This document shows, one piece after another, positions 55,573-60,499 of a stretch of DNA of 64,000 bases. Each line of letters begins with the position of its first letter. Position 1 is the stretch's first letter. The notes beneath the pieces were generated by a model. That model was not told the origin of the DNA. It worked only from the letters and a program-made list of their open reading frames with translations, and ran no database searches. The stretch is from Tichowtungia aerotolerans (lineage in GTDB: Bacteria; Verrucomicrobiota; Kiritimatiellia; Kiritimatiellales; Tichowtungiaceae), in NCBI RefSeq assembly GCF_009905215.1, contig NZ_CP047593.1, forward strand, positions 1,306,900-1,370,899, written 5' to 3'. The translations under genes were made by a program, and so were the position numbers.

Positions 55573-56049
55573 TCAGCCTTCCTTATCGAGATTTAACGTC
55601 AGATAGACGTGTTCCGTTGGATTTTCAAAACCTTTTTGAGTGAAAAACCGGATTGCCGGATCGTTATCTGCCTGCGTATCAACCATCAACATCCGAACGC
55701 CTTCCGCGTCCATAATTTCACGGAAACGATCAAAAAGCTGCCCGGCAATTCCCTGCCGCGCACACTTCGGCTCAACCCCAAGCCACAGCAGGTGCCCATA
55801 ACTCCACGCAGAACGCGCCTTATCAATAACAGTTCCCATTGCAAACCCGACCACCGTTTCATCATCCGTTTCTGCCACCAGAACATGCTCGGTTTCACTG
55901 TTGAACAGATGGGTCACCTCATATTCATCCCATGTCCGGTACAAGTTAGAAAAACCCTGAGAGGTAAACACCCTTTCGCCCAGATGGAAAATAGCGCTCA
56001 GATCATCAATCGTCGCAATTCGAACATTTATCTCTATCGCGTCCCCCAT
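55573..56049 (-). CDS. GNAT-family N-acetyltransferase
   Basis: 158 residues. GNAT fold with the acetyl-CoA motif GVEPKCARQGIAGQLFDRF (R-x-x-G-x-G/A variant) and the closing FFTQKGFENP. Substrate unknown. It is the first gene of a pair with the M20 deacylase, which fits an acetylation/deacetylation step. Confidence 0.85.
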   Translation of the reverse strand: MGDAIEINVRIATIDDLSAIFHLGERVFTSQGFSNLYRTWDEYEVTHLFNSETEHVLVAETDDETVVGFAMGTVIDKARSAWSYGHLLWLGVEPKCARQGIAGQLFDRFREIMDAEGVRMLMVDTQADNDPAIRFFTQKGFENPTEHVYLTLNLDKEG

Positions 56050-56077
56050 ACGTCCCCCTTCTACGCATCAACTCAGC

Positions 56078-56743
56078 CTAAGTTGCCACAAAAAACAGAA
56101 TGCCGAAAAAATGGCAGATACTGCCTGCCAACACAAACAGGTGCCAGATAGCATGAGCAAACCTGAGCCGCTGCCAAACATAAAAAACAACGCCCAGCGT
56201 ATAACACAGTCCTCCAGTCGCCAGCCAGACAATCCCCATCACCGGAAGCGCCTTCAGCAACGGAACTATCGTGGCCACCACCATCCAGCCCATGGCCACA
56301 TAACTCAAGGTCGACAGGATCTTAAAACGACTGATAAACAAAGCCTGGAACACGATTCCGACAGCGGCAATCCCCCAAACCACTCCGAACAGGCTCCACC
56401 CAAACGTTCCGCGCAGTGGAACCAGCAGATATGGCGTATACGTTCCGGCAATCAGCAGGTAAATCGCAGCATGATCAATAATATTCAAGACCCGCCGGAC
56501 ACGCGGCATGTGAATGCTGTGATAGAGTGTTGATGCCAGATATAAAATCACCAGTGTTGCACCGTAGATTGAGCAACTGACAACCTCCCAGACTCCGCGC
56601 CGCAAGCTTGCAAAGACCACCAGCAGAACCAGACAGGCGACACTCAGCCCAAACCCCAAGCCATGCGTAATCGCATTGGCAATATGCTCCGCAGGAGTTT
56701 CATGCCTTTCATCCGTTTTTAACGGTTTTTCGTATTTTTTCAT
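56078..56743 (-). CDS. Hemolysin III / YqfA-like membrane protein
   Basis: 221 residues with seven helices. TPAEHIANAITHGLGFGLS, STLYHSIHMPRVRRVLNIIDHAAIYLLIAGTYTP (split) and HAIWHLFVLAGSICHFFG give the histidine metal site of the PAQR/HlyIII family. Probable role in membrane homeostasis. ATG at 56743; a TTG one codon earlier is possible. Confidence 0.9.
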   Translation of the reverse strand: MKKYEKPLKTDERHETPAEHIANAITHGLGFGLSVACLVLLVVFASLRRGVWEVVSCSIYGATLVILYLASTLYHSIHMPRVRRVLNIIDHAAIYLLIAGTYTPYLLVPLRGTFGWSLFGVVWGIAAVGIVFQALFISRFKILSTLSYVAMGWMVVATIVPLLKALPVMGIVWLATGGLCYTLGVVFYVWQRLRFAHAIWHLFVLAGSICHFFGILFFVAT

Positions 56744-56767
56744 CAATGAGGATTTTTTTTAAAAAGA

Positions 56768-57109
56768 TTATTTAAGTTTGTTTTCATAAAAAACAGCCAG
56801 CCAGACCGTCCGGCCGCTTAAGTCCGTTTTTTCAACCCGATGCCGCTGTCCGGCCGGGATATTCACAAAATCGCCCGGTTTCAAATTGAGGCCCGGGCCG
56901 TTCTCAAACCCGAGTGTTGCAGAGCCCTCAACAAGCAATACCCATTCATGGTCGTCCTGATCGTACCAAAACCCATCCGGCGAACACTGACCAAAGGACA
57001 CAATCCGCTCAATGCGGACACCGTCTGCATTCAACAGCTCTGTCAAAAGCTCTTGCGACGCACTCTCCGGGATCTTTTCCAGTAAATTCATCGCTACACG
57101 CATTAACAT
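56768..57109 (-). CDS. Cupin-domain protein
   Basis: 113 residues with a single cupin: SPDGFWYDQDDHEWVLLVEG, the first motif with His, and LNLKPGDFVNIPAGQRHRVEKT, the second. It may bind a metal and a small ligand. The frame runs upstream through the palindrome cluster, but that part is repeat DNA; AGGG at a suitable distance supports 57109. A start at 57091 is an alternative. Divergent from mnmG. Confidence 0.8.
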   Translation of the reverse strand: MLMRVAMNLLEKIPESASQELLTELLNADGVRIERIVSFGQCSPDGFWYDQDDHEWVLLVEGSATLGFENGPGLNLKPGDFVNIPAGQRHRVEKTDLSGRTVWLAVFYENKLK

Positions 57110-57138
57110 GAATACAGCCCTTTCTCCCGCTAAAAATA

Positions 57139-57352
57139 TTCCAATGTTTGGAAAGCGTAGTATGGTGGCTTCTGGATATTTTCCAACCGTTGGAAACCGG
57201 TGCCTTCTGAAATTCGCGAAAATACGGCGAACGCTGCTCTGCACATGGTATTGTTCCAAACATTGGAAAATTCGGAAATAAATGCTCCAAACATTGGAAA
57301 CAGGAGTCGCCGCAACAGACGCGGGGAAAGAGGTTTTTCCAGGCATTGGAAA
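57139..57352. repeat. Cluster of five interspersed palindromes between cupin and mnmG genes
   Basis: Copies at 57139 (TTCCAATGTTTGGAA), 57180 (TTTCCAACCGTTGGAAA), 57254 (TTCCAAACATTGGAA), 57286 (TCCAAACATTGGA) and 57336 (TTTCCAGGCATTGGAAA). Five copies in 214 bp is the densest group in the window, in the divergent promoter region and 750 bp before the parS-like sites. Confidence 0.85.
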
Positions 57353-57404
57353 TGCCGGCTCATCCCGGGAAATCCCCGCGTTTTATTGCTGTGAAAATAT
57401 ACAG

Positions 57405-59405
57405 ATGAAAAACCAATATGACGTCATTGTGGTCGGCGGCGGACACGCCGGATGTGAAGCGGCACTGGCCGCTGCGCGAATGGGAACCAAAACATGCCTG
57501 CTAAGTATAGACAAGTCTTACATTGCCCGCATGAGCTGCAATCCCTCCATCGGAGGAATTGCTAAATCACACATCACCTGCGAGTTAGACGCTCTAGGAG
57601 GCGAACAGGCCCGCAACACGGACTTCACCGCCATCCAGCTTCGAACCATCAATACCCGCAAGGGTCCGGCCGTTCAGGCACATCGGGCACAATGCGACAA
57701 AGCCCTCTACCCCGCCCGCATGCAGGCCGTTCTTGCCGGGCAGCCGAACCTCGACATTATCGAGGCTGAGGCCACCGGCATCTGGACCGAAAACGGACAG
57801 CTGCGCGGAGTCTTCCTGAACGGCAACGAACAGCTGGCCGCAAAGACCGTGGTGCTGACCGCCGGCACCTTTATGCGCGGACGGGTCATGATCGGCCAGG
57901 AAGTCGTCTACGAAGGCCGCTGGGGGGAAAAATCCGCAGATGATATATCATCGTCTCTGGAATCGCTGGGATTCGAACTGGGCCGGATGAAAACCGGCAC
58001 CCCACCCCGAATTCACAAGGACTCCATCGATCTTTCAAACATGCAGATTCAGCCGGGAGACGAGCCGCCGCCGTTTTTTTCCCGCACCGCCCGCCGGCTG
58101 TTCCACGTGGAACAATCTGAAAGCAATGCCGGGGATGTTCCACGTGGAACATTGGATCTGCTGGGCCACACGCCCATTTCATCCTCAGAAAACGCGATGG
58201 GCGCCCAGGAGCAGCCCCCGGAGCGGTGTTCCACGTGGAACAAATGGGCGTCCGAGCTGTTTGCCCGCGGCGCAAACGCATTTGACCGGGACTTTCTGCT
58301 CTCCGCGCGCTTGCCGCAGATCCCATGCTGGTTGACCCACACAAACGAACGGACACACCAGATTATCGCCGACAATCTCAGGAAAAGCTCCCTGTACAGC
58401 GGACTGGTTGAGGGAACAGGTGTGCGCTACTGCCCTTCCATCGAAGATAAAATCGTCAAATTCCCACAGCGAACCGCACATCACGTCTTTATTGAACCCG
58501 AAGGACGCAACAATATCCGCATTTATCCAAACGGAACCTCCAACAGCCTCCCGGAGGATATACAGATCCAGATGGTTCAATCCATTCCCGGCCTGGAAAA
58601 CGCGGCGTTTATTCGTCCCGGATACGCCATTGAGTATGATTATGCGCCGCCGACCCAGCTTTTCCACACCCTGGAAACCAAACAGATTGAAAATCTCTTC
58701 TTTGCCGGCCAAATCAACGGAACAACCGGTTATGAGGAAGCCGCCGGACAGGGATTTATTGCCGGAATCAACGCGGCAAGGCGCGCTATGGGCGAAACGG
58801 CCTTTGTGTTAGACCGTACAGAAGCATATATCGGGGTTTTAATCGACGACCTGGTTACCAAAGGAACCGATGAACCGTACCGCATGTTTACCTCCCGCGC
58901 CGAACACCGGCTGACTCTCCGGCAGGACAACGTACATTTCCGCCTGTTTGATCGCGCCAAAGAGCTGGGCATTGTTTCACAGTCCGATCTGACCGAAACT
59001 GCAGCGAAAAAGAAACAGATTGATACTGAAATCGCCCGGTTGGAAAAAACATTCCACGACGGCTCCTCCCTGGCTCAGACATTACGCCGCCCGGGCAATA
59101 ATTATGCCGGACTTCCCGGCGAGAAACCGGACCTGCCGCCGGATGTTATCGAGCAAGTCGAAGTCTCCGTGAAATATGAGGGCTACATCAAACGGGAGCA
59201 GGGGCGCATTGCCAGCTCCCGGTCTTTGGAAAAAATGCGCATTCCAAAGCATCTCGACTACGATGCAATTACAGCCCTGCGTTTTGAATCTCGCGAAAAG
59301 CTCAAGAAGATCCTTCCTGAAACCCTCGGTCAGGCCTCGCGCATATCCGGCGTAAACCCGGCCGATATTTCCATCCTGTCCGTCTGGATCAAGGCAAATC
59401 GATAA
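57405..59405 (+). CDS. mnmG: tRNA uridine-5-carboxymethylaminomethyl modification enzyme MnmG, with insertion
   Basis: 666 residues, longer than the usual 620-630. FAD motif [33 protein letters not shown] and, late, [20 protein letters not shown] and the C-terminal helices to [12 protein letters not shown] are normal. Between PPPFFS and PCWLTHTN there are 80 residues where E. coli has 12, an insert of about 68 codons (about 58085-58318) without resemblance to the family. It contains three parS-like sites. MnmG with MnmE modifies U34 of tRNAs. The gene is often near oriC. The ATG at 57405 starts the FAD fold. Confidence 0.93.
58099..58114. other. parS-like site 1
   Basis: TGTTCCACGTGGAACA, a perfect 16-bp palindrome of the parS class bound by ParB/Spo0J. 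Read by mnmG as FHVEQ. Confidence 0.88.
58136..58151. other. parS-like site 2
   Basis: TGTTCCACGTGGAACA, identical to site 1 and 37 bp from it, so in a different reading frame (DVPRGT). Confidence 0.88.
58227..58242. other. parS-like site 3
   Basis: TGTTCCACGTGGAACA, 91 bp after site 2 and in the third frame (CSTWN). Confidence 0.88.
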
Positions 59406-59522
59406 TCATTACAAGTTATCAACAAACAGGATATACATCCGGATAAAAATATTTAAGACTTGTAAAATCTGATTTTATAATAAATTCCAAACCCTCAAAA
59501 ACCGCCACACCGGTGCAACATC

Positions 59523-59540
59523 GCCATTCCAAGGAATGGC
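59523..59540 (+). repeat. Short hairpin downstream of mnmG
   Basis: GCCATTCC-AA-GGAATGGC in the 265-bp gap before the phosphatase gene. No T-run follows. Confidence 0.4.
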
Positions 59541-59671
59541 AAACCAGAACAGATGAAGAACAATGATTGCTATGCAATTTAGGCCTTCGTTACAGCAATC
59601 GGGTTTTTCTGAAAGACACGTACTGGACGGGCAGAACCGGATGCGTTATGACCTTTTTGAAGAGGAAAGAT

Positions 59672-60499
59672 ATGACTAAACAACTGATCCGTTTCCTGCT
59701 GGTCTGCGGAGCAATCAGCTTTGCAGAAAATGTACGCACAGAGGAATCACTCAACGGTGTCCTTTGGATGCAAACCTCTGCCGAATATCGGGTTTCAACG
59801 GTTCAGGCTTTCCGAACAGCATCCGTGCGGGTTCAGCAAGCATTGCGAGACCGTTCCATTACCGCCGCACTGGAACAACCTGCTGATTACCAAGATCTTC
59901 CGCCCGCAGTAATTGTAGATGTTGATGAAACCGTCCTGGATAATTCCCCATTTCAGGCCCGTCTGATAGAAGCCGGGCAGGAATTTTCTCCCGCGCTGTG
60001 GCAAAACTGGGTCCAGGAAGCTCAGGCAAAAGCGGTTCCCGGAGCAAAAGATTTTATCGAGTTCCTTAAAGGGCAGGGGATTGCTCTTTTTTATGTAACA
60101 AACCGTGAACTGAAAGAGCCTACCCTTAAAAATATTCGCGCGGTTCTCGACCCGGATACCGAAGCTGATCACGTCCTGTGCAAATATGAACAACCGGAGT
60201 GGGGCTCAGACAAAACACCGCGGCGCGCACTGATTGCTGAAACTCATCGAGTTATTTTACTGATCGGCGATGACTACAATGACTTTACCGCTTTAGGAAA
60301 AACCGATGCAGTCGAACGTGCTCTTCTGGCAGAAAAATATCAGGCAAACTGGGGTACACGCTGGATTATGATCAGCAATCCGCTCTACGGAAACTGGGAA
60401 CGAGCTCTCTATAATTACAACTATCGTCTACCCCGGCAGGAGAAAACCGCCCAAAAACGCCGTCAGCTGCAAACCATCAAGTCCCTCGAAAAAGACTAA
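59672..60499 (+). CDS. HAD-superfamily class B-like acid phosphatase (e(P4) family)
   Basis: 275 residues: signal peptide (about 1-20), then the HAD acid phosphatase domain with nucleophile Asp83 and Asp85 in IVDVDETVLDN, FYVTNRELKEP as motif II and GDDYNDF as motif IV. It would release phosphate from nucleotides in the periplasm. AGAGGAAAG precedes the ATG at 59672. No lipobox, unlike Haemophilus e(P4). Confidence 0.88.
   Translation: MTKQLIRFLLVCGAISFAENVRTEESLNGVLWMQTSAEYRVSTVQAFRTASVRVQQALRDRSITAALEQPADYQDLPPAVIVDVDETVLDNSPFQARLIEAGQEFSPALWQNWVQEAQAKAVPGAKDFIEFLKGQGIALFYVTNRELKEPTLKNIRAVLDPDTEADHVLCKYEQPEWGSDKTPRRALIAETHRVILLIGDDYNDFTALGKTDAVERALLAEKYQANWGTRWIMISNPLYGNWERALYNYNYRLPRQEKTAQKRRQLQTIKSLEKD

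Follow-up and report, generated by a model that had tools for sequence, protein, structure and literature searches.

Why should five copies of one short palindrome be gathered in the gap between two divergent genes, upstream of an mnmG gene that itself carries parS-like sites? The locus lies in a 64-kb stretch (the window, C1:1306900-1370899) of a genome of 3.88 Mb in one contig (G000), and a sequence-only reading of the window had proposed either an origin-proximal zone of chromosome organization or regulation of mnmG by a palindrome-binding factor. Our analysis places the locus in a wider frame: the mnmG cluster stands out as a strong node in a palindrome system that is specific to the class and helically phased.

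The motif of the cluster is a 15-mer with an odd spacer, TTCCAA-N3-TTGGAA, present in five copies, one of which has a mismatch; the sites are annotated without strand. Copy 1 (TTCCAATGTTTGGAA, 57139 to 57153) stands 36 bp upstream of the start codon of the cupin gene and is followed after 42 bp by copy 2 (TTCCAACCGTTGGAA, 57181 to 57195), after a further 73 bp by copy 3 (TTCCAAACATTGGAA, 57254 to 57268), after 31 bp by copy 4 (CTCCAAACATTGGAA, 57285 to 57299, with C for T at the first, outer base), and after 52 bp by copy 5 (TTCCAGGCATTGGAA, 57337 to 57351), the mnmG start lying 53 bp further on. These start-to-start steps correspond to 4.0, 7.0, 3.0, and 5.0 turns at 10.5 bp per turn, a phasing with a P value of 0.0008 for four random spacings. 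All five sites fall inside the divergent intergenic region of 301 bp (57104 to 57404, from our own gene caller) between the start codons of a small cupin-domain protein (Cupin_2; 56768 to 57103, minus strand, start at 57103) and of mnmG/gidA (GIDA, 666 amino acids; 57405 to 59405, plus strand), which carries the parS-like sites in an insertion. An ATG at 57282 opens a longer version of the mnmG frame, which overlaps copies 4 and 5 and leaves the true start of mnmG uncertain. No sigma-70-like promoter was recognized in the cupin/mnmG gap, so sites and promoters can be said to overlap from position only, and a search of Rfam returned nothing near the gathering score across 56000 to 60000.

Both the coordinates and a count of 24 TCCAN5TGGA matches in the window agree with the earlier description of five copies in about 214 bp from 57139 as the densest group there, and its placement between the divergent genes held as well. 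A genome with uniformly dense sites should contain 0.0003 groups of five sites within 200 bp, and 0.0015 if the intergenic density is applied. In a sample of 61 stretches that included the window and covered 1.264 Mb, or one third of the genome, we found 37 pairs, 1 triple, and 1 quintuple, the mnmG cluster being the sole group of more than three.

The palindrome is spread over the whole genome. Its core, TTCCA-N5-TGGAA (consensus TTTTCCAA-N3-TTGGAAAA), had 951 forward matches as TTCCAN5TGGAA, compared with 1 for a reversed control. When copy density around mnmG was compared with that of the genome, as had been suggested, the window held 297 core sites per Mb (19 in 64 kb) and the sample 246 per Mb (311 in 1.264 Mb, the window together with sixty 20-kb stretches taken at intervals). 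Of the sampled sites, 111 were intergenic and 200 intragenic (approximately 64% in genes), or 0.46 versus 0.20 per kb; these shares are approximate, coming from a home-made gene caller, and were 111 and 182 with a stricter motif and a retrained caller. The densest gap type was the convergent one, with 0.78 sites per kb. Constraint was confined to the core and flanking T/A tracts, with position frequencies near background more than 3 bases outside the core, and the spacer was variable except for the dyad base, which was G or C in 279 of 303 sampled sites. A free spacer within a constrained core fits binding sites, unlike copies of one element. The motif with an even spacer (N4) was absent from the window and almost absent from the genome.

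The phasing is not peculiar to mnmG. Outside that cluster, 40 neighbor spacings between 18 and 110 bp fell at 21 to 23, 30 to 32, 40 to 43, 53, 63, 71, 83 to 84, and 91 bp, giving an R of 0.81 at 10.5 bp, and none of 20,000 random sets was as strongly phased. Phasing was present both in genes (R of 0.87, n = 20) and between them (R of 0.82, n = 24, with the mnmG cluster included). The whole genome contained 11 triple clusters with steps of 22 to 52 bp, and the control contained none. These triples share no overlap, and there is therefore no run of four at such steps; since the mnmG cluster itself contains a 73-bp gap, further large groups with gaps above 52 bp may exist outside the sampled third. 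The neighbors of the intergenic clusters appear to be housekeeping genes with no relation to one another, which we take, by eye from their translations and not from a family search, to be mutL, nadA, lysS, fusA, and pcnB. No DNA-binding candidate was recognized among the genes adjoining the intergenic clusters of this genome.

The neighborhood of parS and of the origin raised the possibility that the palindromes are a mark of the origin domain or of segregation, working together with parS. The locus is indeed origin-proximal, as had been suggested: dnaA lies at G000:C1:1385867-1387195, the cumulative GC-skew minimum is at about 1386900, and the cluster (1364038) and the parS-like sites are both 22 kb from dnaA. 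The whole genome has three matches to GTTNCACGTGNAAC, a parS-type consensus, and every one is in mnmG. These sites (TGTTCCACGTGGAACA, without strand) occupy 58099 to 58114, where mnmG reads FHVEQ; 58136 to 58151, in a second reading frame (VPRGT); and 58227 to 58242, in a third (CSTWN). The first begins 747 bp from the cluster end, which bears out the distance of about 750 bp given previously. The three sites stand in three reading frames, and the DNA site rather than the peptide seems to be conserved at 58099 to 58242. The lineage-specific insertion that carries them is missing from the MnmG of Paenibacillus and of Clostridiales. Among the 30 mnmG loci obtained from 35 genomes of the order with a match, 25 had at least one GTTCCACGTGGAAC. 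Parallel to this, we observed that the palindrome (57139 to 57351) and parS (58099 to 58242) have the half-site TTCCA in common, with 5 and 2 bases, respectively, between half-sites. The genome has one ParB homologue, a TIGR00180 match at 2.712 Mb. A chromosomal parS calls for palindromes of this type close to the origin of a genome that also encodes ParB, and G000 has both. Only this parB (L139, G000:C1:2711983-2712513) was found, and it is unusually far from the parS sites and dnaA, at 1.35 Mb.

The shared distance from dnaA and the TTCCA half-site within TGTTCCACGTGGAACA would suit an origin mark. However, palindrome density was flat around the chromosome (Spearman coefficient of 0.08 with distance from dnaA, P = 0.57, for 59 of the 60 stretches, with the window excluded and one stretch with 8,283 N omitted), and 10 of the 11 triple clusters lie away from mnmG, 112 kb to 1.88 Mb from dnaA. 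Together, these two results speak against the palindromes themselves as markers of a zone at the origin, the first of the earlier proposals. The single ParB homologue, 1.35 Mb off, and the genomes of family f2, which keep parS without the cluster, argue in the same direction, and we consider a role as an origin or segregation mark very improbable. Clusters far from the origin, which had been named as evidence against a special zone at mnmG, were found in the form of triples but not as groups of four or more.

Groups of at least two sites within 300 bp upstream of mnmG occurred in 5 of 13 scorable members of the genus, this genome included, with 5 (G000), 4 (G292), 3 (G294), 3 (G302), and 2 (G300) sites. 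Scoring covered the 13 of 14 f1 loci with a readable start; one of the 30 mnmG loci (G289) was left out, and Verrucomicrobia bacterium UBA5540 (L033), which has an mnmG cluster of three sites with spacings of 30 and 31 bp and one parS, was not counted beside G302. In the other genus members with groups, the spacings were 41/32/41, 31/32, 30/31, and 42 bp, so that positions had shifted while phasing was kept, the pattern to be expected if selection maintains a row of bound dimers while individual sites turn over. No upstream group was present in the remaining 8 of the 13 (G288 had a single site at -467), a close relative with 767 copies genome-wide (G032) had zero sites upstream of mnmG, and the sister family f2 had a site at 0 of 16 loci (104 to 702 bp available, searched to 600 bp).

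Amplification of the palindrome is patchy and restricted to the class, presumably Kiritimatiellia. At least 50 copies were counted in 33 of 97 class genomes, with up to 2,297 copies, while 0 of 191 genomes from elsewhere in the phylum were amplified, the maximum there being 30. Losses have occurred within genera; thus, the members of g2 had 2,237 and 2,297 versus 20 and 20 copies. Triple arrays at steps of 30 to 33 bp (gaps of 15 to 18 bp) were found in 48 of 146 class genomes, with up to 209 arrays each and none in the control. The placement of sites differed among lineages: 26 of 26 sites in G012 (74 kb read) and 29 of 34 in G341 (60 kb read) were intergenic, both at steps of 31 to 33 bp, and 52 of 76 sites (68%) in G225 (200 kb read) were in genes. 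We also observed that convergent gaps were the densest in G012 (L180-L183) and G341 (L193-L195), as if gene boundaries were marked, with small counts per gap class in these relatives. In G225 (L170-L179), a member of the same order with 2,297 copies, eight close pairs lacked helix phasing, unlike those of G000. Gene positions in G159 were left out, since the first calling gave 19% coding and a repeat gave 61%, still a poor value; an alternative genetic code was checked for this genome and dropped. No substitute amplified palindrome appeared in eight low-copy genomes, for which 20 to 60 kb each was read.

On the strength of these patterns, we think it probable that the palindromes are sites of a dimeric, oligomerizing, sequence-specific DNA-binding protein with a global or architectural role. 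The symmetric site, the free spacer, phasing that is independent of coding, variable linkers, and gain and loss limited to the class are consistent with a dimer-forming protein that makes contact with its neighbors along one side of the helix, and the presence of sites beside mutL-, nadA-, lysS-, fusA-, and pcnB-like genes suggests a global or architectural role. Such a protein would bind the palindrome as a symmetric dimer, neighboring dimers would join side by side on one face of the helix, and the protein would act genome-wide, as a global regulator or as a nucleoid-architecture protein, and not in one pathway. Five dimers seated upstream of mnmG would lie over the two divergent promoters and bend or wrap about 215 bp. 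Both promoters must fall within the gap across which the row of sites extends, so the dimers would be expected to restrain or tune both genes, mnmG as well as the cupin gene. Control of mnmG by the palindrome binder, the second of the earlier proposals, is plausible from the position in the divergent gap and the recurrence in 5 of 13 genus members; we infer the effect on transcription, as we do protein binding and oligomerization. Several observations count against this reading: a protein that binds the palindromes was not found; site density peaks in convergent gaps, an odd place for a factor that regulates initiation alone; the pairs in G225 are unphased; and G032, 8 of the 13 genus members, and f2 are without the mnmG cluster.

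Other kinds of iterated sequence were weighed against a dimeric binder. An uptake- or repair-type repeat, of the kind of DNA uptake sequences or HIP1 and involving no array of proteins, would account for the many copies, the housekeeping neighbors, and the intragenic position of most sites (approximately 64% in G000, 68% in G225), but it sits poorly with helical phasing, which to our knowledge is not known for HIP1, and with the 0 of 26 (G012) and 5 of 34 (G341) sites in genes; we regard it as quite unlikely. Spread of REP-like copies by Y1 transposases (RAYT) draws on a correlation between motif count and PF01797 (Y1) matches (Spearman coefficient of 0.42, P = 8 × 10^-5, 83 genomes), a test that ignores phylogeny and genome size. 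Arrays nevertheless exist in G319 (54 arrays) and G148 (29 arrays) with no PF01797 match in either, both being incomplete assemblies, and genomes of f5 have many Y1 proteins but few sites. The lack of constant sequence beyond the core and the helical phasing speak against mobile copies too, which makes this explanation highly improbable. We give even less credence to RNA hairpins acting as terminators or mRNA elements, for which the high density in convergent gaps could be cited: no terminator-like site was found, RNA folds were not clearly better than those of shuffled sequences (z of -1.5 to 0.2), and sense-strand G-U versus A-C variants did not differ significantly (25 versus 31 in genes and 8 versus 14 between codirectional genes).

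As for the identity of the binder, MatP is disfavored (PF06303 matched in 0 of 146 class genomes, with a positive E. coli control), as is a second ParB of the Noc type, with one TIGR00180 match in a search limited to G000. By architecture, the leading candidate is a class-wide Lrp/AsnC (feast/famine) protein that would wrap DNA on sites spaced by two to three turns. According to PMC2995911, Lrp-type sites are short clustered palindromes with centers two or three turns apart on which DNA is wrapped, and the palindromes here match that architecture in being short, clustered, and set at whole-turn steps; PMC4046817 describes a 15-bp palindrome and intragenic binding for Ss-LrpB. The G000 genome encodes exactly one PF01037 protein (C1:831697-831921), whose best solved match is PH1519. 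PF01037 was present in 48 of 48 genomes with arrays versus 75 of 98 without (Fisher P = 5 × 10^-5, uncorrected for phylogeny, the genomes not being independent) and in 33 of 33 high-copy versus 40 of 50 low-copy genomes (the 83 of the 97 class genomes that are also in the 146-genome set were used for profile tests against copy number). These counts are compatible with an Lrp/AsnC protein as a necessary factor for arrays. However, the protein is kept in most low-copy genomes of the class, its helix-turn-helix did not separate high from low genomes by eye, sites lay within 400 bp upstream of an lrp gene in 3 of 70 loci (a few of the 70 being short second AsnC-like proteins), and the dyad here is G/C, compared with the A/T-rich center of the Ss-LrpB site. 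One lrp gene, in G341 (L265), has three palindromes within 172 bp upstream. Binding of the palindrome by the local Lrp is not supported, and we consider the class-wide Lrp/AsnC protein an unlikely binder.

A bolder possibility, which we hold to be doubtful, is that the class has a dedicated chromatin, in which predicted rows of a sequence-specific protein at steps of 31 to 33 bp would stand at gene boundaries, convergent ones included, and split the chromosome into insulated units. The rows would be almost only intergenic in some lineages and also intragenic in others, and the mnmG cluster would be the densest nucleation site in G000. For the global dimeric binder that we prefer, the scale is of interest in itself: with approximately a thousand exact, helix-phased sites in a genome, the system far exceeds an ordinary regulon and comes near the scale of nucleoid proteins, which as a rule have much lower sequence specificity. 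Should a single protein read the sites, they can be read from sequence in dozens of genomes, so the architecture and its evolution through gain, loss, and array formation would be testable by sequence alone. No description of the palindrome turned up in the literature, most subscription papers being out of reach, which makes this weak evidence of absence.

Several known systems share features with the palindromes. The matS sites of MatP are also 5-N3-5 palindromes scattered over a chromosome, but the sites described here are not confined to the terminus, given their flat density, and no MatP was found in the 146 class genomes. Noc binding sites form a genome-wide palindrome, as is the case here, and the half-site TTCCA is that of the local parS; unlike in Noc/parS, three more bases separate the half-sites, and G000 has a single ParB homologue. 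REP/BIME elements are numerous intergenic palindromes in groups, whereas here conservation extends over only about 15 to 19 bp and the linker varies freely. NrdR, with its paired boxes at 31 to 32 bp, was considered as well. HIP1 of cyanobacteria differs in being an 8-bp sequence, GCGATCGC, with a link to a methyltransferase; it resembles our sites as a short palindrome of very high copy number that is low in some relatives (PMC4390886). Operators of Lrp/AsnC proteins (Ss-LrpB and FL11) are likewise clustered palindromes of 13 to 15 bp, lying on one helix face at intervals of two or three turns, where interacting dimers bind them (PMC2995911 and PMC4046817), but the palindromes of this class have other letters, a G/C dyad, and exact sites that number in the hundreds to thousands per genome.
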